A stretch of DNA of 64,000 nucleotides. Source: Chytridium lagenaria (lineage: Eukaryota; Chytridiomycota; Chytridiomycetes; Chytridiales; Chytridiaceae). Below, piece by piece: positions 28,196 to 64,000 of the stretch. The translations under genes and the position numbers were made by a program. Numbering within the stretch: position 1 is the stretch's first letter; each line of letters opens with the position of its first letter. The DNA lies in the NCBI GenBank assembly GCA_025449115.1, contig JAHLKC010000001.1:600844-664843 (forward strand), given 5' to 3'. Below the pieces are notes generated by a model. The model was not told where the DNA came from. It worked only from the letters and a program-made list of their open reading frames with translations, and did not search any database.

Positions 28196-30161
<1,966 letters not shown>

Positions 30162-32004: not shown

Positions 32005-32415
32005 TGCAAGTGGTATGCGTGGTTGGTAGTGAAGCAGCAAAGTCTGTGAATTCAACAAAATTTCTCTTCTCGAAACAGACCGTCAAGTTACGCTGCGTTG
32101 ACTTTATGCACAGGAAAATAGCATCCACAGTGCACGGCCATCTGTTAGATTTCGACATGCTGAAATGCAGCTCTTGGTATAAAGAACTTCAGACCTGAAT
32201 TGAAGTTGCGCACCCATGGTGTGAGCTTATTTACGGTTCAGGGTGAATTCGGATCTCAAACGTCATCCAACGATGCCTCTATCTTGCATTATTGAGACTT
32301 TGCGCATACAGAACGTGGACTCAAAAACAAGATAGATACTCTGAAGAACTGTTGCATTATTGTTTAAAGTTTCGCTGATTTGTAAGAAATTCTTGCCTGC
32401 AGCGTCAACGATATT
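32005..32415. promoter_or_regulatory. Divergent promoter region
   Basis: About 410 bp between the divergent CSN8-like and ankyrin genes. It must contain both promoters, but I see no recognisable element. Confidence 0.4.
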
Positions 32416-34412
32416 ATGTTGGCACTGTCTGTTCCGGAGGTGGTGGACCGAATCCTACTCTACCTCAACGACCTCACAAGCATCACTCGTTTTCTCTTCA
32501 TGCTGCAAAACAATCCGCTCAGTCTCAACGCGATCTGACCGTTGCATACAAATGCGGGTTTACTCCAAGATGCCCGATGGATGGAGTGCCCTGTCACTAG
32601 CAGCTAGATACGGCAACCTGAAAGTCGTTGAATACATATTGAAAAACAGAAGAGACATTTTTATAGACCTGGATGGCATGCATGGCAGTGGAAGGAATGT
32701 CCGGACTCCACTTGAATGGGCTGCAGGAGGTGGGCATTTAGGGGTTTGCATCGCGCTCTTCAACGCTGGCGCAACATCTCCCGGGGCTTTGATCGCGGCC
32801 TGCAAACATAACATGAGTGAAGTGTGCTGGTTTCTGTTGACGGCGGGATGGGAGCCGTCGTGGTTCCCTGACGAGTGGTGCAGCGTCAAACCATGGGACT
32901 TTGACGGTGAAAACGAAAAGGACCCGTTTGACGAAGGCATGACAGCTTTACACTGGGCAGCCTGCCGTGGGAACAGCGAGGTGTGCCGAATGCTTCTTGA
33001 TCAGAGCTTGATGTGGATTCCGCCAGCATTGTGGATGGACGAACTCCGTTGGCTCATGCGGCTCTGCATGGCCATATCGAGACGATCCAGTTCCTTGTTC
33101 AGCGAGGGCAGACGTTACTTATGTGTGCGATACGTCAACCGTCGGTAACTTGGGAAAACCTGTACTCTTCACGCAGTAAGAGGCAGGAACGTCAAAGCTT
33201 GCCAAGTCTCGTGGATCTGGGCGCTTCCCTCATCGCTAGGCATGAGGCGCCTCACTATTAAGCTGCGCCGTGGTGGCGGTAGGGAGCCTGAAGCACTTGA
33301 CTGGGTGCTCTCTTGGTTCCCGGAGACTTTAACGAGATGACTGATTTTCAGCCAAGGACAGCACTAATGGAAGCAGTGCTGACGGGGAATGCCGAAAACT
33401 ACTCAAGACTGGGAAGTCTCCATCGATACCTCCGACGCAAAGGGGTTCTCTGCACTACACTTTTCAGCCATCTCGAATAAAGCAAGCATTACTGCTCTTC
33501 TTCTTGAGAAAGGTGCGGACCCAGAGCTGATGGCGCAGGCTTGAATACGTTAAATATGGCGGCCATGAAGAACGCCTCTGACGTGATAAGGCTTGTAGCG
33601 CCAGGGATGGACATGAGTAAGAAGACCTCAAGCGGGTTGACACCGCTTAGTATGGCCATCTATAAGCAGAACCTGGATTCCATAACCGCTTTGATCGAAT
33701 GCGGGGCGGGCATCGAGAACATTGATCCGGATGAGATGACTGCCGCGGGCTTGTGCGCATCACAGGGTTTTCTAGAGGCCTTGGAGTGCATTGTGAAATT
33801 GCGCCCCGATTTATTGGAGCTCCGTGACGTTGAGAATGTGACCTCCCTCATAATCGCCTGCGAGAACGGTAACGAGGAGGTTTGTGAGAGGTTGATTGCG
33901 CTTGGAGCCTCTGTGGATTGTATGGAAAATGTCGGTAAGGAGAAGCGAGGAGGAACTCCGCTCTTGGCAGCCGTCACGCAAGGCCATTCGCGCGTTGTAG
34001 AGCTTCTTTTAGAACACGGTGCAAAGGCGGATGCGTTGTTTCACAGAGTTCCACCATTATGCCGAGCGGCTAGGCTAGGCTTTTCTGAAGTCTGTGGGGT
34101 GCTGATTCGTTATGGCTGTGCTCTCGACGATAGAGTTGGGAGCCTCACCGCGCTGCAAACGGCGGCGTCTCAAAATCATGCGGACGCTGTCACTGTCATT
34201 GAAAGGGCTATGATCGAGGCCGGGTTCGGGTTAGAGCTTCAAGATAGTGATGGGAACACGGCGTTGGCACTAGCAGCCTATTACGGGAAGGAGAATGCTG
34301 TGAGTGTTCTTGTCGGAATGGGGTCCTCCAAGGACGCGAAAATGGTGGTGGAATGACACCAAAGGAATGTGCTTTAGCAGAAGGCCATATCACTGTGTCA
34401 GGATACCTTTGA
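32416..34412 (+). CDS. Ankyrin-repeat protein with an F-box-like N-terminus
   Basis: Protein-protein interaction scaffold with at least ten ankyrin repeats. The first ATG opens MLALSVPEVVDRILLYLNDL, which resembles an F-box or similar helical cap. Repeat signatures follow: GWSALSLAARYGNLKVVEYI (about 32580), TPLEWAAGGGHLGVCIALFN, MTALHWAACRGNSEVCRMLL (about 32940), TPLAHAALHGHIETIQFLV, FSALHFSAISNKASITALLL (about 33440), TPLSMAIYKQNLDSITALIE, TPLLAAVTQGHSRVVELLLE (about 33955) and NTALALAAYYGKENAVSVLV. It ends GGGMTPKECALAEGHITVSG. Frame breaks near 32530, 33030, 33130, 33290-33390, 33410, 33540 and 34330. If the N-terminus is an F-box, a role as an SCF ubiquitin-ligase receptor would fit, but that is inference. 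Confidence 0.8.
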
Positions 34413-46361: not shown

Positions 46362-49106
46362 ATGCTGTCAGCCATTGTTCTCGCTTCTCTACTCTCCGCA
46401 GGCATCACCCATGCTGTCCCTCTCGAGAGGGCAGGAGGTCATGCCAATCCATTCCTTGATTCCGTCTCAAAGTTAGAGTTGGAGAAATGTGGGGTTCCCA
46501 AGTATGTTACGGTAAGTTTATGAGTGCAGGTTCTGTCCATGTTTGTAACTCATGGATGCGTTGCATGCATGCATGCATTGCAACGGACGTTGTTTTCCTT
46601 TCTTTCCTTACTGTTTGTGGAATGCCATTCTAACTGTTTGTTTTCAATGACTTTCTTTTCGAATCATCCTGTTTTATCTTTTTTAGAATGGAGACTCGTG
46701 GGAGACCCTCGCTGCATCCCTTAGCGTGGTGAGTGTTCTTTGCTACTTTTATTTCCGTTTCTTTGTTCATTTGTGGTTGTCTTGTATGAATTCTTTGAAG
46801 GACGGACAATGTTCTGGACCTTCCCAACCATACTTGGTTCTAACCCATAAACTATCAATTTTTAAAGAACGTGGACTCGCTCAAGCAATGGAACCCTTAC
46901 AGGACCGAGGTCACGGTAAGAATCAAATAACAGTTATTCCTGCCTTGAGCGTTTTGTTATTTTATTGCTTTGATCTTGTATAAAGGCACGCATTAATACT
47001 TTAAATTATTTTTGTAAACAGATAGGTCAGATTATTTGTGGTGCTAGCCCAAAGATCTCGTGCAGCACCCGCTTCAGCGTTGAAACGGCAACGACCTGTA
47101 CCGACCTAGCCGCTCTCCTCCAGATCACCACCAACGTTATTAACGAGCTCAACCCCGGTCTTCTCTGCGGTGCCATCGTTCCAGGTATGTGTAGCCTGCT
47201 CATCAATTACCCTCTCTAATGCTATCCAAACAGGCACCCACGTTTGTGTCAACAGCGTCACGAGCCAAAAACGTGGGTGTCAACAGCGTTGATAAATTCC
47301 AGATCGGTCAAGCCCTTTCTCTTGGTGCCTCCACCGGCAGCCCCTCTGGACCCGCCAACCCCACCGGCTGCCCTAACAGCCACATCATCGAGTCTGACGA
47401 CACTTGTTATAAAATTGCCCTCAAGAACGTCATGGCTCTGGCCGATCTCGTCGCCCTCAACCCAGGTGTCGACTGTTATAAACTCCAGATCGGTCAAGCC
47501 CTTTGTCTTGGTGCCTCCACCGGCAGCCCCTCTGGACCTGCCAACCCCACCGGCTGCCCTAACAGCCACATCATCGAGTCTGGCGACACTTGTTATGAAA
47601 TTGCCCACAAGAACGGCATGGCTCTGACCGGTCTCGCGCCCTCAACCCAGGTGTCGACTGTGATAAACTCCAGATCGGTCAAGCCCTTTGTCTTGGTGCC
47701 TCCACCGGCAGCCCTCTGGACCTGCCAACCCCACCGGCTGCCCTAACAGCCACATCATCGAGTCTGGCGACACTTGTTATAAAATTGCCCTCAAGAACGT
47801 CATGGCTGTGGCCGATCTCGTCGCCCTCAACCCAGGTGTCGACTGTAATAAACTCCAGATCGGTCAAGCCCTTTGTCTTGGTGCCTCCACCGGCAGCCCC
47901 TCTGGACCTGCCAACCCCACTGGCTGCCCTAAGAGCCATATCATCGAGTATGGCGACACTTGTCATGAAATTGCCCGCGAGAACGGCATGGCTCTGACCG
48001 GTCTCGTCGCCCTCAACCCAGGTGTCGACTGTTATATAACTCCAGATCGGTCAAGCCCTTTGTCTTGGTGCCTCCACCGGCAGCCCTTCCACTTCCCTTC
48101 CTGCTCCGGCCCCTGCCCCTGCCCCTGCGCCCATCGGCTGCGCAAGGTCTCACACCATACATTCTGGTGACACCTGTTGGGCCATTTCCCTTAAGAACAA
48201 CCTCGATGTCGACGGTCTTATCGCCATCAATGACAACCTCGACTGCGGTAACCTCCAAATCGGTGCCGTCATCTGTGTTTGCCCTGAAGGTCGTCAATCC
48301 GCTCCTGCCCCAGTACCGCAGCCCACTGTTGCTCCCCGTCCACCGTCGTCCCTGAACCTACCCAAGCTCCTCAACCCACTCAGGCTCCCCAACCGACTCA
48401 GGCTCCTAACCCCCCCCCGCTCCTCAACCCTCCCCCGCCCCTCAACCCTCCCCCGCCCCTGAACCCGCCCCCGCCCCAGCTCCCCAACCCTCTATCTCAG
48501 CCGAAGAGAAAGGCATTCTTGACGCACACAACCGCGAGCGCGCAAAGTATGGCGTTGCACCTCTTCAATGGGACACAGGGTTGACCGCCTCATCCCTCTC
48601 GTACGCTCGTGAACTTGCTGGTAAAGGATGTCCTATGGTTCATCGTACCGAAGGGTATGGACAAAACCTTTGGGGAATGTACGCGGGAGAGGGTTCAAGT
48701 CTTCCTAACGATGTTGATGGCGCGTGCTGTGGATGATTGGACTCGTGATGAGGATAACAAGGGGTTATATGCGACCAACCACTGGACTCAGGTGATGCTT
48801 TTCCCACCCCTGTCTTTTTTTTCCGATGCGATTTATTTGCTTCTCTCTTGTATTAACGATTTTTGATTGCTTTTTGTAGATGGTGTGGAGGTCTACTACA
48901 AACGTTGGTTGCGCCAAGGCTTTCTCCGGCGGAAACAAGTGTCTCGCCATCGTGTGCCACTATAGTCCTCCGTAAGTCCCTTCATATGCTCCCTGGCCTC
49001 CTCTTCTTCTCCACATTAACACCCTCTTTTCTCCCCGTCCCCTTTCTTCTCCAATCTCACACCTTCTTTCTTTCAGGGCAACTACGTTGGTCAACCCGCG
49101 TTCTAA
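46362..49106 (+). CDS. Secreted multi-LysM protein fused to a CAP (SCP/PR-1) domain
   Basis: MLSAIVLASLLSAGITHAVP is a signal peptide. Two divergent LysM-like modules span the first exons (YVTNGDSWETLAASLSV, VDSLKQWNPYRTEV, IGQIICG; then VETATTCTDLAALLQITTN, INELNPGLLCG). Then come a partial and four nearly identical Cys-containing LysM units (SHIIESGDTCYKIALKN, VALNPGVDC, LQIGQALCLGA) and a final divergent one (SHTIHSGDTCWAISLKNNLD, NLQIGAVICVC). A Pro-rich linker (48300-48490) leads to a CAP domain: GILDAHNRERAKYGVAPLQW, GYGQNLWGMYAGEG, NHWTQMVWRSTTNVGCAKAF, CHYSPP, GNYVGQPAF. The stop taken is in the first of two duplicated terminal exons. LysM modules bind chitin or peptidoglycan; CAP proteins bind sterols and other lipids. 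The joined roles are inference. Frame breaks near 47637, 47714, 48030 and 48350. Confidence 0.85.
47366..48107 (+). repeat. Tandem 186-bp LysM-encoding repeats
   Basis: Units start with GGCTGCCCTAACAGCCACAT or a close variant at 47366, 47552, 47736 and 47922, with a partial copy just upstream. Spacings are 186, 184 and 186 bp. The 184-bp unit lacks one base in CTCGTCGCC and one in a CCCC run, which breaks the reading frame. High identity implies recent expansion or gene conversion. Confidence 0.9.
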
Positions 49107-55079: not shown

Positions 55080-56750
55080 GGACTCGGATTACCTGGTATG
55101 ACAACAGATCACGCAGCTCATCAGAAACTGGAATCACTTACCCAATCTGAATTCGCAACCTGCGGCAACCCTACCAAAAGCTGTTAAGACCCCCAAAGCA
55201 CCTCTTACCACCAGCCGATCCTCATCCCCTACCCTCCTTACCTCTTTAAACCATCCCCATCGCTTCCCATACCCATCCTGCCCTATCGCCTCATCCATAG
55301 ACCTCGAACCCCCGCTCACTGATACCAACCTCACCGACACATCAACACTTACCGGACCTCTTATCACTAACGATCTGGACCCTTCCCCTACTACTAACCC
55401 ATCCCCCGTCGAAGGGACTTCTACTTTTTTGCAAACAGATTTGCTCAATTCTCTATAGGTCACGTGACCAAACACCCACCGACAACACAAGTATTGCCAA
55501 TCTGTCAACATCGACTATGAGAAATCTTCCCCCGGCACCCACCTGTCCACCATGATCCCATCCCTTCTCGCCCATCTTAGAGGAGAGATCTCTCGACTCC
55601 ATGAGAAGATGGCCGAAATGATGCAGACCATGGCTGGGACTTAGTGAGGATAACCGGAGACTTGGCACGTTTGGAATCTAAAGATGAGGAAATCAGTCGC
55701 CTTCTACTCCTTATCGCACCTCATCCAAAAGCGACGGCCACCTCTACACATCTTCTCTCTCTCCACCTCCTATGCAGCAAGTCCAGCAATTACAGCAACC
55801 CCAGCGGCCATCATGGATGAAGAGGAAGGCGAGATTCAAGAACCGCCCTTACACCCATCTTACGCAAATGAAGGCCGACATCATTAAAGCTGTCTCCACC
55901 GAACTTACCAACGTCATGAAGGAAATGATCACTACTCGCATGCCGACCCCAGCTGAATCTCGACGGCCTCTCCCAAAACATTCTCTGAAAACTTCGACGT
56001 TAACCGACCCCGACCCCAGCTGGACCCCCCAGTTTTGCGGCTGCTGTACGTCAAATCACCCGCGAGAAGCCTCCTCCGACCACGCTGCAAGAGTCGTTTT
56101 CCGCAGCTCGTATCCCGTAGCTTGATTACCGGCATCACGAACGTATACATGAAAGGCAGTGTGCCCTCCGGTGTTATGTGGCCTCAACGATTTGTGATCA
56201 TCCGCGAAGCTTTATCGTCCTTAGGCATCAAGAAGGCATCGTCGATATGAGCTTCATTGGAAAGTCAGTTATACATCTGTTCTGTGACGATGCCCACGTT
56301 ACCAACATTACGAAACGCCTCCAAGATGCCGGCCATCTTCTCGTTAATTTCGACCCTCTTGAAGTTCCGGATCTTGTAGTCGCAAGCACCAAAACTAAAA
56401 CTGAACGAGAAAAGGAAGGAAGAGAGAACTTCGTTAAACGACTTGGGGCCATGTATAATAGAGGGGGTTTCCAGCTTAAACAGGCGTGCTTACATGGTGT
56501 CCCGGAAGACCTTGCTACTGCTATTCGACATCATGCCGCCACATATGCCGTCTCAAATGTTTTTCGACCCCCACCTCCTCATGAAGAACACCGCCCCATC
56601 GCCCAACCTAAAACCATACTCAAACGCCCCTCACAAAGCTTGCCAGCACAGAGTACCACCCTCGCCAATCGTTTCCGCAGCCTTGAAAACATGGAGGATG
56701 AGAATTTGCACACCGTTGATGCCGACGTTAACATGGATGTTAATGTCTGA
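55080..56750 (+). CDS. LINE ORF1 (Gag-like), frame-broken
   Basis: Pro/Ser/Thr-rich N-terminal part (55130-55460), Gln/Pro-rich middle (PPMQQVQQLQQPQRPSW, about 55765), then a better conserved C-terminal frame: YMKGSVPSGVMWPQRFVIIR, FIGKSVIHLFCDDAHVTNIT, NFVKRLGAMYNRGGFQLKQA. The position directly before an endonuclease/RT ORF and the general layout fit an ORF1 nucleic-acid-binding protein. No zinc knuckle is visible. Breaks near 55460, 55640, 56030 and 56245. The stop overlaps the ORF2 start. Confidence 0.6.
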
Positions 56751-57094
56751 AGACGGCGACGTTCATATTTTACGACTTGGCTTCTTGAATGCCCAAGGGC
56801 TTAGCGGTAAAGCCGAATTGATCACTAATACTTGCATAGATTTGGACATTGACCTCATTGCTGTTACTGAAACGTGGCTTGCGCCAACGGATGGAGTTCC
56901 TATGAGACGGGTTATCGCCAACAGCACCGCACCAGCACGAAAACGCCAAGCCGACGGCACAGCTACAGGCCGTAGGGGCCAGCGGGGCGTCTTAATGGTG
57001 GGACCTGGTGATAGGGAAGTTGGGACCGAGGTGCTGGGGATTGATTCTGAGGGGAGGTGGTTATCTATCAAGGTGGGAGCACTCGTCATAGTAG
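56743..57094 (+). CDS. LINE ORF2, N-terminal half of the endonuclease domain (interrupted)
   Basis: ORF2 of a non-LTR retrotransposon. The ATG overlaps the ORF1 stop (ATGTCTGA). LRLGFLNAQGLSGKAELI and DIDLIAVTETWLAPTDG are typical of the APE-like endonuclease/exonuclease/phosphatase domain (the Asn and Glu metal-site motifs). The frame runs to SIKVGALVIVV and is then cut by the left LTR of the copia element; the domain resumes at 62705. Confidence 0.8.
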
Positions 57095-57315
57095 TGTTTG
57101 GGACAATAATCACCAGGCGAGAGTGTGTCGTCGAGAAAAGATGAGAACGCGGTGGGACAAACTTTTGTGGGATTAAATGGAGGGCGATGTTGCACAGGTT
57201 CCTCATCTTGTTTATTCAATTTGAACAGGTGAGGATGGGGAGAGAGTGATGCGATGATGAGGGGAAATTTAAGCATGTATATGGTTTAATACATCTTGTT
57301 TATTCAATTTGAACA
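57095..57315 (+). repeat. Left LTR of the copia element
   Basis: Starts TGTTTGGGACAATAATCACC and ends TTCAATTTGAACA. CATCTTGTTTATTCAATTTG plus AACAG occurs twice within it (57204 and 57292). No primer-binding site matching a usual tRNA 3' end (TGG...) follows; the next bases are GATTAAGAGTCTGAAGCTCC. Confidence 0.92.
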
Positions 57316-57473
57316 GATTAAGAGTCTGAAGCTCCAGCGGTCGAGCTACGTTGACAGGAATCTAATCGTCGCGTTCGTCATCGAGAAACGCACAGGAGAA
57401 GACGAACCAAGCAGGAGTTCGGACAAGAAAGGACGAAAGGAAACGAGAGAGACATCACGACAGTAAGGCGAGG

Positions 57474-59623
57474 ATGTCTAAGGCGATAGGAAAGATGGGT
57501 GTTCTCCCGAGAACCCCCACGAACGAGGAGTTCTTGGAATGGAAGGACTCGATCTTGCAAGCTCTCAGCTTGATTGCCGTGCCGAAGGGATACTATCGCA
57601 TTGACCAGATCTCGGATCAGCTCCTCAACGCAATCGCCATGCCTGTTCAAGCGGAGTTCATGACGACTGTTACGGCTCCTAACGTGGAAGGATTTAGGAA
57701 AGAGATGCAGGCTTGGAAACATGTGGAGGGATTGATCAAAGGAGCGATTAGAGAAAGGTTGGGGAACAAGACGATGATTGATTTGGCTACGAAAAGTGGG
57801 ACGCACATGAGGGATGGCTCCTGCTCTTGACCGACATCGACTTCGAGAAGGACAGCGCCATTGAAGCGTTGAACGCTCAAGTCGAGACATTCGCACAGGG
57901 AATTCGAGAGGCGGATCTCGCGTATGCGAACCGCCTGCAGGATTTGATTCATAAGCTCCGAGTACTCGAATACCCCGATGCGTCTCAGGCTGTTTTGGTC
58001 ACTCAGTTTGATGAAAAGATTGCCAAGAAGTTCATCGGCGGTCTTCGTGAGGACAGAAAGGTGGCCTTATACGGAGCGTTCGACAGCAAAAATCTCCTTA
58101 ACGACTTCACGGGCATGAGGACGTATTTGAAGAAATTCGGTAAAGTCATCGCCAAAGGAAAAGTTCAACGAAGGGAGAGAGAGGAGAGCGAGCGTGACAG
58201 GGCCCTTATCGCTCGAGTCTCCGGGGCAGAGAAGGATTTGAGAAAGCAGCCGTGGAAGAAGTCCGGGGGAAAACAACACGAGTCGGTGGACAACAAGAAG
58301 CTCTACGTTGGCAACCTACCCTACACCATGACGAGCGAGGGATTGCAGAAGGAGTTTGCTGTTTATGGCAACGTCGTCGATGCCTTCGTCGTCCCATCAC
58401 ACGAGGACGGGATAGCGAATAGAGGATTTGGGTTCGTCGAGTTCTCGAAGGAGGGTGAGGCTCAGGCAGCAATCAAGGGATGTGAGAGCAAAGTAATTGG
58501 TGGGAGACCTGTGTTTGCCAACGTCGCCAAGCCTAAACCTGGGGGAGGAAAGGGAAAAGAGGCCGAGCAAGTCAAGAAGGTAGTTGAAGAGGACGGGAGC
58601 GATGGGAAGGATGGGTCGGAGTCGTCGGACGACTATGAAGCTCTTCCAAAGGGCTTTGTCATGAAAGCTAGGGAGATGGGACCAGAGGATGTCTCTGAAG
58701 AATGCCTGTGGTCATCCTCGGATGACGATGAAGAAGAGATAATAGATTTCTTCTCCTCCTACCCTTCGCATGATTTCAAAGTTAACGGAAACGACGATGG
58801 ACACATGGCTCTGTCTTGTCGAAAACATGTTGAGGTTACCGACCCAGAGAAGTATTCCTCAATCTTTTGGGGATGGGTAGACTCTGGATGCACATCTCAT
58901 ATGACGCCTGACGACTCACTTCTATCTGACCGGGTAGTCACAGACGTGCGCAAAAGGTTCACGACTGCAAACGGGCATCAGATAGCCAGCACTGGGGTAC
59001 AAGGAAACTACGAAGGTATCAGTGAGGGTGCAGACGTCCCATTCGAAGTGAAGGGGATAAGTCACGTACCAGAAGCGGACAGCACCTTGCTGTCCGTATC
59101 GCAATTCGTGGACGAAGGATACGATGTTTGGTTTTGCAGGAAGACGAAGACGGTGAACATAGGCATTCTGTGCGAGAACGATCACGTCGTAGCGGCGAGA
59201 GGAAACCGGATAAACGGAATGTTTAGGCTCGCGCTGATGAAGCCGTCGGGGATGGCCATGTTAGGAAAGGGTCTTCCTTTGACGAAAGACGCTGATCTAT
59301 GGCACAGGAGATATATGCACGTGGGCTTCAAAAGCCTGAAAAGGACCATGGGGGCGGTACATGGCCTAAGGGTATCTGGGACGTTTCCAAAGGAACCTTT
59401 CTGCAAACCCTGCATAAAAGGCAAGATGCATATCCAGCCTTTTCCGTCAGCAGACAGCAAATGCGAAAAGATTTTGGGCGTTGTTTCTCTGGACCTGCTT
59501 GTGATGTCAAAGAAAATGATGTCGTTGGGAGGATCACGATACTTTATTGGTCTTTCCGTGCGGAAAACAGGTTTGAAATTTGGATACGCGGTCGCTTCAA
59601 AGAAGGGGTCGCGTCACACCTAA
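57474..59623 (+). CDS. Copia Gag-RRM-protease-integrase (N-terminal part)
   Basis: The first frame (57474-57830) is Gag N-terminus: MSKAIGKMGVLPRTPTNEEF, LEWKDSILQALSLIA. A one-base shift leads into a 598-codon frame. There, residues 1-110 finish Gag (LEYPDASQAVLVTQFDEKIA, FIGGLREDRKVALYGAFD). Residues about 157-238 form an RRM: RNP2 LYVGNLPY, RNP1 RGFGFVEF, ending VFANVAKPKP. An acidic Ser-rich linker follows. The aspartic protease site is WVDSGCTSHMTPD (58876-58914). The pre-integrase zinc motif is LWHRRYMHVGFKSLKR with FCKPCIKGKM. Integrase begins GVVSLDLLV (first catalytic Asp) and the frame ends at GSRHT, where another shift continues the domain. No CCHC zinc knuckle is present anywhere between Gag and protease. 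Confidence 0.9.
58295..58541 (+). other. RNA recognition motif (RRM) within copia Gag-Pol
   Basis: About 82 codons with the full beta-alpha-beta-beta-alpha-beta pattern: KLYVGNLPYTMTSEGLQKEF (RNP2 plus helix 1), VYGNVVDAFVVPSHEDG, NRGFGFVEFSKEGEAQAAIK (RNP1 plus helix 2), GGRPVFANVAK. Aromatic RNA-contact positions are Tyr in RNP2 and two Phe in RNP1, all present. The motif is uninterrupted and in frame with Gag upstream and protease downstream. Confidence 0.92.
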
Positions 59624-60305
59624 CTTTCGCGAGAGAGTGGTTAGAAAGACAAGTCGGAGAAAAGGTGCTCGAATGGCATGCTGATAAAGGGGGGGAGAAC
59701 ACATCCAACTCACTGAAGGCGGCGTGTAGGGAAGCAGGGATAATCCTGAGTCTCTCCAACACGGAGGCGCATCAGCAGAACGGCGAGATTGAGCGCTGGT
59801 TTAGAGCCAGCTTCGATATGGTTCGGTCGAATCTTGAGGAAACCGGCGCACCAGCGAAGCTATGGCCTGAATGCATTCAAACAGCTTGCTACTGTCATAA
59901 TCGAACAGTGCACGAAGGTGAAACCGAAACACCTTACCAGCAAACATTTGCAGAAACCGACGGTTTTCAGATTTACGAGTGCTGAACTGCTTAGCCTACG
60001 TCAGGGAACTGCCTAAGAATTTAAAAGATAAGAAACTTAGTCCGCGAGCTAAAAAGGGCAGATTCATCGGCTACGCGAGATATGACGGGCAAATGGTGCA
60101 AACTAAAGGATACAGAATCCTTCTTGACGACGACGATGCGGACTCCGTCGTGGTGAGCAGAGATGTCTACTTCGTGGAGGACCAATTCGACATAAAGAAC
60201 CCACAGCCGCTCACGTCGAAACTAAAGCTGACGAAATGGAACGATCATCACGACGACAATCACTTCGACACAGCTGATCGCACACCCCAAGGGGAGGATG
60301 ATTGA
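59590..60305 (+). CDS. Copia integrase, remaining core and C-terminal part
   Basis: The frame continuing the integrase core reads VASHLTFAREWLERQVGEKV, EWHADKGGENTSNSLKAACR (second catalytic Asp) and SNTEAHQQNGEIERWFRASF (catalytic Glu of NGxxER). Then ECIQTACYCHNRTVHEGETE and, after a shift at about 59983, LNCLAYVRELPKNLKDKKLS, PRAKKGRFIGYARYDGQ, RILLDDDDADSVVVSRDVYF. These are the expected conserved blocks of copia integrases. A stop at 60303 and shifts before RT break the polyprotein. Confidence 0.82.
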
Positions 60306-60737
60306 TACGACGATGAAGTAGCTGGGGTGCCGACAGCTGCGCCGGCGACAGTACAAGCGGATGATCTCACGATGACGAACGAAGAGGAACGCGAGACTGA
60401 GCCATTGCCGTCGCCCACGAACACTGAAGGGACGACCAGCAGAAGAAGGACTACGGTTCTTAGTCAACCTATTGCAAGCACATCGAGGTCGACGAGGAGC
60501 AAAGGGCCAGCCAAGCTTTAGTAAAGTGTTGGGAAAACTCTGGGACGAAGAGGAAGCTCCAATGCCAGGGGAGCAAGCGCCAGGGGAGCAAGTGGCAAGC
60601 AGCCCTGAAGACCCTGAACATGTCTCTGAGGACGAGGAAGGGGAACCGGTCCAGGAAGCCAGTCCGACGATCACAGCGAGCCCTGTGTCGTCAAGTCAAA
60701 CTAGACAGGGATTCGAGTCTGGGTTCAGTGGTAATCA

Positions 60738-61620
60738 GTGATTCAGAACACGAGGTTTTCGAGGATGCGGAATCAGGATGGGCGGGGATGGCCAAGATGC
60801 GGAGGAGGACGAGAAGGGGTGCAAGTCTTCATCATAGTTGAGGAGGAGTTCATCGATCGGATAAACCAGGCTGGGTTCGTTGGAAGCATGCACCGATGGA
60901 GGAACACGAGCTATGTTGACGAGAGACGGTCCGAAAAGCATCAAAGAAGCACTGAAGGACCCAAGGTGGAAGGCGGCTATTCAGAAGGATACGATCAAAT
61001 GTTGGGGATGAACGCGTGGAAACTGGTTCCGCTCCCGCCGGGAAAGAAAGCGATTCCAAGTCTCTGGGTCCTGAAAGTGAAAGTCAACGAGGAGACGAAT
61101 GAGGAGCAAGAGAAGGCGAGGCTGGTGGTGGATGGGGAAACAGATAGCAGGGGAGGACTATGATCGAACCTTCACGCCCACGCCGAGCATGAACTCGTTC
61201 AAGATGCTGATGGCTCTGAGGACGCAGAGAGGAATGATTACCAGGCAGTTGGACTGGACCGGTGCGTTCCTCAACGCGAGGTTGATCGATCACAAAATTC
61301 ACGTAAGACAGCCAAAAGGGATGGAGGTAAAAGGGAAGGAGGATTTGGTATGTCTCCTCGAGAAGGCGGTCTACGGTATATGTCAAGGGTCGTTTCTGTG
61401 GTTCTCGGAGGTTGGGGTTCTCTTCGTGAAGGAGTTGGGCTTCGTCAGGTGTCCTTTTGAGCCATGTTTGTTCACGAAAAGAACACCAAGGGGATATTCA
61501 CGTTGAGATACATACGGACGACGCGGTGATCCTAGCAGATAGAGGAATGCAACAGGAGGTGGACGATCTGGTGGAAGAAATCGAAAACGGCACAAAATCA
61601 GGGATCTTGGGGAGCTGAAT
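60738..61620 (+). CDS. Copia reverse transcriptase (frame-broken)
   Basis: Blocks of a copia RT: MNAWKLVPLPPGKKAIPSLW, VLKVKVNEETNEEQEKARLV, then after a shift QIAGEDYDRTFTPTPSMNSF, RQLDWTGAFLNARLIDHKIH (first catalytic Asp), EKAVYGICQGSFLWFSEV (Q-S in place of the usual L-K-Q-A pattern), and after another shift IHTDDAVILADRGMQQEVDD (catalytic DD). Shifts near 61125 and 61495. The upstream stretch 60306-60740 is a Glu/Ser-rich linker. Confidence 0.78.
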
Positions 61621-61854
61621 CAATATTTGTTTTGAGGCCAAGTGCGCCGAAGGTTCAACCTCTTGGATCAGGAGGCGTACTGTCTCTCCATACTGGATGA
61701 ATTTCAGGAAGAAAAGCAAAGGCTGAGGAGGGTGGCTTGGGATGGTGAGCTGGACGAGGAATTTGATAAGGGCTTTGCCGACCGACGAGGACTGGGAGTA
61801 CGGAGCGAGATTTCTGGCGCCTGGTTGGGAAGCTACAATACCTGGTACATACGC

Positions 61855-62450
61855 GCCCGGACATAGCGTACGGGGTTGGCAACTGGCGAGGTTTGCGTCG
61901 CGCCAAGGAGAATCACTGGGAGGCGGGACAACGGGTTTAGGCTATCTCAGGGGAACGACAGATATGAGGCTCACGTACACGAGGAGGGATGACGGGATGG
62001 AGCCGACATGTCAGTGGTTGATTCCTGAGTGTTTTTCTGACGCGGATTTCGCTGGGACCGAGAGACAAGAAGATCAACATCTGGCTTGGCTATCACGATG
62101 TGTGGAGGGGTGGTGGTGGCGTCAAGCAAGCGTCAGACGACTGTCGCGGACTCTACGGTGGCAGCGGAGACGATTGCTTGTACGGTTTGACGCGGGAGGT
62201 ACTTGGGTGAGGAATATGCTGGGGTGGTTGCGGGTTGGGAAGCCCGGACCTACTGTTCTTTGGTGTGACAATGCGGGGGCCGTAAGAAACTCTCAGGAAG
62301 GTTCGGAAAGCACACACGAAAGCATATGGACATTAAGTATATGTTTATTCGTGACATAGTGAGCAGGGGTTAGTGGAGGTCAGACATATGGGAACGCGAG
62401 GGATGGTGGCGGATATACTGACGAAGGGGCTGAAATGGGTGGATTTTTGA
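61855..62450 (+). CDS. Copia RNase H (frame-broken)
   Basis: Fragments: RPDIAYGVGNW, YLRGTTDMRLTYTRRDDGME (about 61942), CFSDADFAGTERQ (catalytic Asp), later PTVLWCDNAGAVRNSQ (catalytic Asp near 62270) and, in another frame, VEVRHMGTRGMVADILTKGL close to the end, the usual end signature of copia polyproteins. Breaks near 61920, 62095, 62200 and 62350. Confidence 0.72.
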
Positions 62451-62476
62451 GAAGCACAGGGATGCCTCGGCCTGGT

Positions 62477-62485
62477 GAAGGGGAG
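62477..62485 (+). promoter_or_regulatory. Polypurine tract of the copia element
   Basis: GAAGGGGAG lies immediately before the right LTR, where the plus-strand primer of an LTR retrotransposon is expected. Confidence 0.65.
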
Positions 62486-62704
62486 TGTTTGGACAATAAT
62501 CACCAGACGAGAGTGTGTCGTCGAGAAAGGTGAGAACGGTGGCACAAGCATTTGGTGGGATCGAATGGAGGGCGATGTTACACGGGTTCCTCATCTCGTC
62601 TATTGAATTTGAACAGGTGAGGATGGGGGAGAGAGTGATGCGATGATGAGGGGAAATTTAAGCATGTATATGGTTTAATACATCTTGTTTATTCAATTTG
62701 AACA
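62486..62704 (+). repeat. Right LTR of the copia element
   Basis: Matches the left LTR end to end. The half after GTGAGGATGGGG is identical apart from one G in a run; the first half carries most substitutions. It ends GAACA and is followed by LINE sequence. Confidence 0.92.
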
Positions 62705-64000
62705 AGTATGGGTTATCTTCCCCCAATGGTTGATGATGCTGCTGGAGCGGCACATATGTTACAAGAGTTTGACGAATTCCTAGATGGGATGGTGTTAAAG
62801 TGCCCCACCTCACCTATGGTGGTGGTAGGGGATTTTAATGCCAGGATGGGGCAAATTACAGGATATGACTGTAGGGGAACCCATACGAAGGACCTGGATG
62901 AAAACTGGATTAATGATCCAGAATGGACATTACTGGAACCGTCGCGCGGCAAATGGACGACGCACTCAATCCGAGGACGAGGCATCACGGACTTTGTTTT
63001 TTCTTAACTCCTTAGCTCTCCTTTTGGCCCCAGACCTAGTTGTGCATGAAGACATCACGCTAGGCAGCGATCACTCCCTACTTACCATAGAGATCCCTCT
63101 ACCTGGTGCCTTCTGGAAACCTTCCTTTTCCCGCATCAACGTACAACAGCTACAAGGCGCCGCCTGGATGAATACAGAGACGCGTTGAGAGACAGACGGG
63201 AGGACATTATGGCACGCCTGGGATTGCTTGAAGTTACTGCGGCGGCACAAAGAGTAGCTGGGACCGTCTTGGACTGGGAACGTCGCCTCAGAAAAGTCAA
63301 CGGGGCCTCAGATATAGTGGTTGGATGGCTTCTGGAAGCGGCTGAAGGCTCGGTGGGACGTTTCAAGTTTAAGAGTGGTTCCCCACATCCCGGTTTCGAT
63401 ACCCCGCACATCACCGCTCTTCGTAGATTGGCACAGCAAGCCCATGGACTTTTCACCTCAGCCGACATGATTGATAGACCGCTCTGGTGGAGATACCGTC
63501 AAGAGGCCAACCGTCTTTATAGAGCCGCAGTACGACTTCATCGTACACGAATATTTCGACAAAAAGCGGATACTATCTTGTCTCAGCCTATCGTTGCCGC
63601 CAAAATCCTCTCGTGCCAACTCTCCCGCCATAAACGTGCTCATTGTGCTCTGGACCCCGAGGAATTGGATCGATACGCCACTCACTTCACATCTACCTTT
63701 GGCGCAGAACCCACCGGCACTGCCATCCCTGACGACGACTTTCTTGAAGCTACGGACCCTGCCACTCCCCAACGTGTGATGCCTGACCCCACCTGGCTCA
63801 ACGATCTGGTAATGACAAATGTAATTAGTATGACGGCATCAGGAAAAGCAACCAGAGAGGATGAGATCTTTGGGGAAATGCTCTCACGAGCCCTACCTGA
63901 AGTTCTTGCCCCACTGCGAGTTCTCTTTACTTTGGTTGTCGTCTACAAATGCATTCCTTCATCATGGAATATCACCAACGTCGCCCTGGTATTCAAGAAC
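62705..64000 (+). CDS. LINE ORF2 continued: endonuclease C-terminus and start of reverse transcriptase (runs off the window)
   Basis: Resumes the interrupted endonuclease: GYLPPMVDDAAGAAHMLQEF, MVVVGDFNARMGQITGYD (catalytic GDFN), GRGITDFVFS and LGSDHSLLTIEIPLP (catalytic SDH). After shifts near 63005 and 63180 comes a helical linker (ALRDRREDIMARLGLLEVTA, WWRYRQEANRLYRAAVRLHR). The RT N-terminal region follows (MTASGKATREDEIFGEML, IPSSWNITNVALVFKN) as far as the right edge. The polymerase catalytic YADD lies beyond the window. Confidence 0.82.

Follow-up and report, generated by a model that had tools for sequence, protein, structure and literature searches.

A Ty1/copia clade with an RRM domain at the site of the Gag zinc knuckle

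In a clade of Ty1/copia retrotransposons, a canonical RRM of cellular source has probably taken the place of the zinc knuckle with which Gag usually ends, and would serve as Gag's RNA-binding and packaging module. The window, the whole 64,000-nucleotide stretch of Chytridium lagenaria JAHLKC010000001.1 that was analysed, contains one decayed and dead copy of such an element. Retroviruses and most LTR retrotransposons rely on a zinc knuckle as their standard RNA-packaging module, with packaging, chaperoning and primer annealing all bundled in it, and Ty1/copia Gag usually, though not always, ends in a CCHC knuckle. We weighed replacement of the knuckle against an accessory role for the RRM, several independent captures and artefact, using copies in the same genome, related proteins from elsewhere and trees of Pol and of the RRM.

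The window copy

All features of the element described here lie on the plus strand, except the target-site duplication, to which no strand applies. BLASTN of both flanks identified a 5' LTR with TG...CA ends (57095..57315) and a 3' LTR (62486..62704) that are 92% identical (207/225), with ends placed by eye. Also by eye, a likely 5-bp target-site duplication, AGTAG, was found at 57090..57094, with its 3' counterpart AGTAT at 62705-62709 (one mismatch), and a polypurine tract, GAAGGGGAG, at 62477..62485. The sequence directly after the 5' LTR (57316-57335, GATTAAGAGTCTGAAGC...) does not resemble the usual initiator-Met primer site. LINE-like coding with endonuclease-like motifs, recognised by eye at 56443-57141 and about 62710-64000, flanks the element on both sides, so the copia element appears to be inserted in a LINE; Pfam was silent in the two stretches of this flanking sequence that were scanned. 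Elsewhere, the window holds a carboxylesterase-like gene part (28218-28826; COesterase, 133.4 bits), ankyrin-repeat-like ORFs (32360-34356; Ank_2, 67.6 bits in the first) and LysM-like tandem repeats in two overlapping frames (47219-48170; LysM, 51.8 bits in the first).

Three-frame translation beside the C56 copy placed the N-terminal part of Gag at 57474..57818, in a frame that differs from that of the following ORF and is followed by a frameshift; a Pfam scan of this part alone returned no match. A 598-codon ORF (57827..59623) then encodes the remaining Gag capsid, the RRM, an acidic linker, the protease and gag_pre-integrase. The RRM (58295..58525, residues 157-233) contains RNP2 LYVGNL and RNP1 RGFGFVEF. 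The linker between RRM and protease (58526..58858) is a low-confidence region with a net charge of -15 over 103 residues (229-331) and block-mean pLDDT mostly of 28-38. Downstream, Pfam places Pol_BBD at 58874..59122, a region that includes the protease motif VDSGCTSHMTP (DSG at 58880-58888), and gag_pre-integrs, the zinc-binding start of the integrase, at 59282..59428 (35.7 bits). The sequence-only reading had described an RRM fused between Gag and a DSG protease in one 598-codon frame, and this was confirmed by matches to RRM_1 (58.2 bits; curated cut-off 20.7) and Pol_BBD (42.2 bits). The domain has the beta-alpha-beta-beta-alpha-beta fold, and structure searches returned matches dominated by RRMs.

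The remainder of the element is broken. Three-frame translation recovered decayed integrase, RT and RNase H at 59624..62470 in several broken frames, and the P0065 match to this decayed pol part (C1:661753-663216) contains 13 stops; together with the frameshift in Gag, stops in these three domains leave the copy without intact coding capacity. The order is that of copia, with integrase before RT: pre-integrase, then broken integrase, then broken RT in the window, and gag_pre-integrs, SH3_retrovirus and RVT_2 by Pfam in its relatives. The elements thus share with Ty1/copia (Pseudoviridae) the LTRs, the order of Gag, protease, integrase and RT in one polyprotein, and the Pol_BBD, gag_pre-integrs, SH3_retrovirus and RVT_2 domains; they differ at Gag's C-terminal end, where an RRM appears to stand in for the CCHC knuckle.

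Copies in the genome and a wider clade

Searching the genome with the window protein gave matches at C56 (76% identity), C121 (in fragments of 38 to 86%), C326 (39%) and C160 (30%), and an RRM match was present at all four copies. At C160, a protease-like motif lies 3' of the RRM in a different frame. C148, where the RRM alone was read, carries a domain 92% identical to that of C160. These RRMs indicate that three families carry the module (C1/C56/C121, C326 and C160/C148). The LTR occurs at eight places in the genome, with pairs also around C56 and C121 and single copies at C116 and C33; C116 has an LTR and RT related to the window element, and the window protein matched no Gag, RRM or protease there.

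Constraint on the RRM was assessed by simple counting in one pair, window and C56. The proportion of nonsynonymous differences (pN) came to 0.073 for the RRM and 0.077 for the protease/Pol_BBD region, against 0.099 for Gag and 0.201 for the linker, with pS of 0.55 to 0.75, which is high or saturated; in the comparison with C326, pS was at or close to saturation. By Fisher tests on this pair, the RRM differed from the linker (p 1.2e-4) and not from Gag (p 0.40) or the protease (p 1.0). These counts place the RRM under purifying selection, with a constraint like that on the protease, and indicate that it was preserved during the time when the elements were moving. The dN/dS-type comparison proposed beforehand thus points to constraint on the domain.

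The first protein search returned one close Pol relative, P0001, which is truncated short of Gag; P0001 and then P0049 served as the next queries. With 7995 candidates scored in the first search and 7990 in that with P0001, at least 13 clade proteins were obtained. They come from contigs of JGI and ENA that are probably metagenomic, and a gap in E-value separates them from other copias (5e-155 vs 5e-59 with P0001, and 5.7e-91 vs 3.6e-29 with P0049). RRM_1 scored above its cut-off in 9 of the 13 clade proteins found (P0048, P0049, P0050, P0058, P0059, P0061, P0062, P0063 and P0065). P0060 starts inside the RRM and scored 15.2 bits, under the cut-off, and the sequences of P0001 and P0051 do not include the RRM region. 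P0064, an otherwise open polyprotein of 1584 residues, has a degenerate RRM-like stretch at residues ~325-400 with a weak DbpA-type match (17.7 bits, under the cut-off). Scans of genome_contigs and viral_contigs confirmed no DNA loci of clade relatives.

Four of these proteins, P0059, P0063, P0064 and P0065, have lengths of 1484 to 1584 residues and run without a break from a Met across Gag, the site of the RRM, protease, integrase and RT by Pfam, with RNase H recognised by eye, and apparently intact clade members therefore exist. Open polyproteins with an RRM site would be unlikely to persist if the RRM broke the element. Between these proteins and the diverged genome copies, the fusion proved to be old and common to a whole clade; the sequence-only reading had proposed to check whether a family shares it. 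A chimeric assembly join was ruled out by the presence of the fusion in those copies and in polyproteins from elsewhere. That the fusion reflects chimeric assembly, or an RRM gene inserted by chance in one dead copy, is accordingly a negligible prospect: a broken copy such as that in the window could tolerate junk, but the pN/pS comparison with C56 indicates constraint.

RNP residues were compared by eye across the aligned rows. Position 2 of RNP2 is aromatic in all 10 rows that reach it, and position 5 of RNP1 is Phe in 11 of 12. At position 3 of RNP1, which normally supplies an aromatic side chain for stacking on RNA, 7 of 12 rows are aromatic and the other five, all of the P0049 type, have Cys; a subclade of P0049, P0058, P0059, P0061 and P0062 has this Cys. 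Given the Cys in 5/12 rows and the degenerate domain of P0064, RNA affinity may vary within the clade.

Probable replacement of the zinc knuckle

Pattern searches, strict or loose, found no CCHC in the window, C56 and C326 frames, bearing out the earlier observation that none is visible in the window Gag, and none in the 11 clade proteins found in which the sequence ahead of the protease runs to 100 residues or more. Among outside database rows, a strict CCHC lies upstream of the protease in 31 of 38 and is missing from 7, four further rows being too short. Copia loci in this genome have a CCHC in 9 of 12 cases without an RRM, a set that includes near copies of one another, and in none of four with an RRM. 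Because CCHC is also absent from 7/38 outside rows and 3/12 non-RRM loci, and because Ty1 Gag, which is not known to have an RRM or a zinc knuckle, packages RNA by means of a chaperone region, a missing CCHC alone proves no substitution.

Comparison with related Gags bears on this point. Among CCHC copias, the Pol tree places C40 and C138 nearest to the RRM clade. Both carry CHTCLYRGHTSKKC between Gag and protease, and hhalign against a profile of seven clade proteins showed the C40 Gag to be a homologue of the clade Gag (probability 98.1, E 8.8e-14, 219 columns). The probability against the clade Gag profile was 96.9 for C34, 91.0 for the more distant common UBN2 type and a low 27.8 for C3. 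A Gag homologous to that of the clade therefore keeps CCHC at the RRM's site in related elements, which fits replacement, not addition, and supports the earlier suggestion that the RRM was swapped in for the knuckle. At L039, L040 and L052 (C40, C138 and C115, respectively), a Cys-rich stretch precedes an unusual CCHC (CHTCLYRGHTSKKC; CTKCQYYGHHSKRC).

For the Pol tree, 15 of 70 matched rows were dropped as weak, short or very divergent, leaving 55 rows with 390 columns. The tree placed the 14 RRM rows, which include the partial P0060 and degenerate P0064, and three rows lacking the region on one side, with support of 72/18. Adding C40/C138 to this clade raised support to 98/95, and adding C34/C5/C115 to 100/100. 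The pattern search found no CCHC in C5, C34 or C24; C5 has a frame-broken half motif, which is what its CCHC label in the tree denotes, so that only C115 of the outgroup C34/C5/C115 has a full CCHC. With CCHC in C40/C138, C115 and most outside copias, the simplest history is that the knuckle was lost and the RRM gained within this branch. Due to the weak 72/18 support, C40/C138 may lie inside the clade. Among the copies compared, none of the same family had a CCHC and lacked an RRM; C40/C138 represent a separate lineage, with 38% identity from protease to integrase.

Origin and role of the RRM

To place the RRM among cellular domains, we built a tree of 78 rows and 71 columns from 15 element RRMs, 35 host RRMs and the 28 database RRMs that scored best against the window RRM. 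For the host set, 40 stretches were taken from the 103 RRM matches in the genome; one of them (C148) is an element, and a domain filter kept 35 of the remaining 39. The tree had little resolution and split the element RRMs into several groups; forcing all 15 together cost 36.9 log units (p-AU 0.099), and for 13 rows p-AU was 0.233, so a single origin is not rejected. After C56, the best scores against the window RRM were those of the six database RRMs P0021, P0012, P0020, P0025, P0022 and P0023, followed by C326 and host RRMs; judged by eye, P0021, P0012 and P0020 have a bacterial look, and the scores are too weak for any donor claim. The proposed phylogenetic comparison with host RRMs was thus compatible with a single origin and with a source either in this host or elsewhere, but it neither united the element RRMs nor identified a donor among the host and database RRMs included.

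The split among element RRMs could instead reflect several captures, in which P0049-type, P0063/P0065-type and window-type lineages each gained an RRM independently. We regard this as unlikely, because the cost of joining the 15 rows comes from only 71 columns and does not reject a single origin, the best Pol tree has all RRM rows on one side, if weakly, and every RRM occupies one Gag site without CCHC.

The position of the RRM at the knuckle's site suggests that the element packages its own RNA with a borrowed domain. Placed at the C-terminal end of Gag, the RRM, which probably derives from a cellular RNA-binding protein, would use its RNP1/RNP2 face to bind the single-stranded RNA of the element; many Gag copies would coat this RNA and package it in the particle, and the protease would later free the RRM-bearing piece as nucleocapsid. 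The main rival, to which we give slightly more weight than to several captures but still consider improbable, holds that the RRM is an accessory module that recruits a host RNP, retains Gag on its own mRNA as this is translated or directs it to RNA granules, while a basic Gag chaperone region packages RNA. Yeast Ty1 Gag, also a copia Gag, packages RNA by such a region C-terminal to the capsid, according to PMC10951436. An accessory role would also suit the open polyprotein P0064, which retains merely a degenerate RRM, and the window Gag, with a net charge of +5 ahead of the RRM and -1 in it, where four relatives have +2 to +4. However, the stretch ahead of the RRM is not consistently basic across five proteins (+5 in the window, then +4, 0, -1 and -4), three of the five have an acidic stretch behind it, and the RRM itself occupies the knuckle's site and is constrained like the protease. 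We therefore favour the RRM as the packaging module. The fuller proposal, that a captured cellular RRM replaces the zinc-knuckle nucleocapsid in a widespread, possibly still active copia clade and selects genomic RNA by its own sequence preference, seems to us evenly balanced.

Cellular RRM proteins (PABP, ELAV/HuR, hnRNP A18 and bacterial-looking single-RRM proteins) share the fold and RNP motifs of the element domain but have no capsid or protease fusion. LINEs are non-LTR elements that are not known to have a Gag capsid, and their RRMs are reportedly noncanonical, as Khazina and Weichenrieder are said to have found in 2009, whereas most copia-clade RRMs have aromatic RNP1/RNP2 residues. LINE ORF1 types I to III likewise include retroelement RNA-binding proteins with an RRM: PMC4120745 lists RRM plus CCHC in type I, coiled coil, RRM and CTD in type II, and PHD with an occasional RRM in type III, so that the type I RRM, unlike that described here, adjoins a retained CCHC. 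Searches of a full-text library with few subscription journals turned up no LTR element, chytrid copias included, whose Gag contains an RRM, and none is described for copia Gag in passages of PMC3605345, PMC5563155, PMC4427930, PMC11105155, PMC7602945, PMC10951436 and PMC4120745.

If the proposal is true, this clade would have the first RRM-based nucleocapsid of any LTR retroelement, a case of convergence with LINE ORF1. Gag may be able to swap its RNA-binding end for a cellular domain, comparable to the use of RRMs by LINE ORF1, and a knuckle-free RRM clade with apparently intact members would offer a natural experiment on nucleocapsid requirements.
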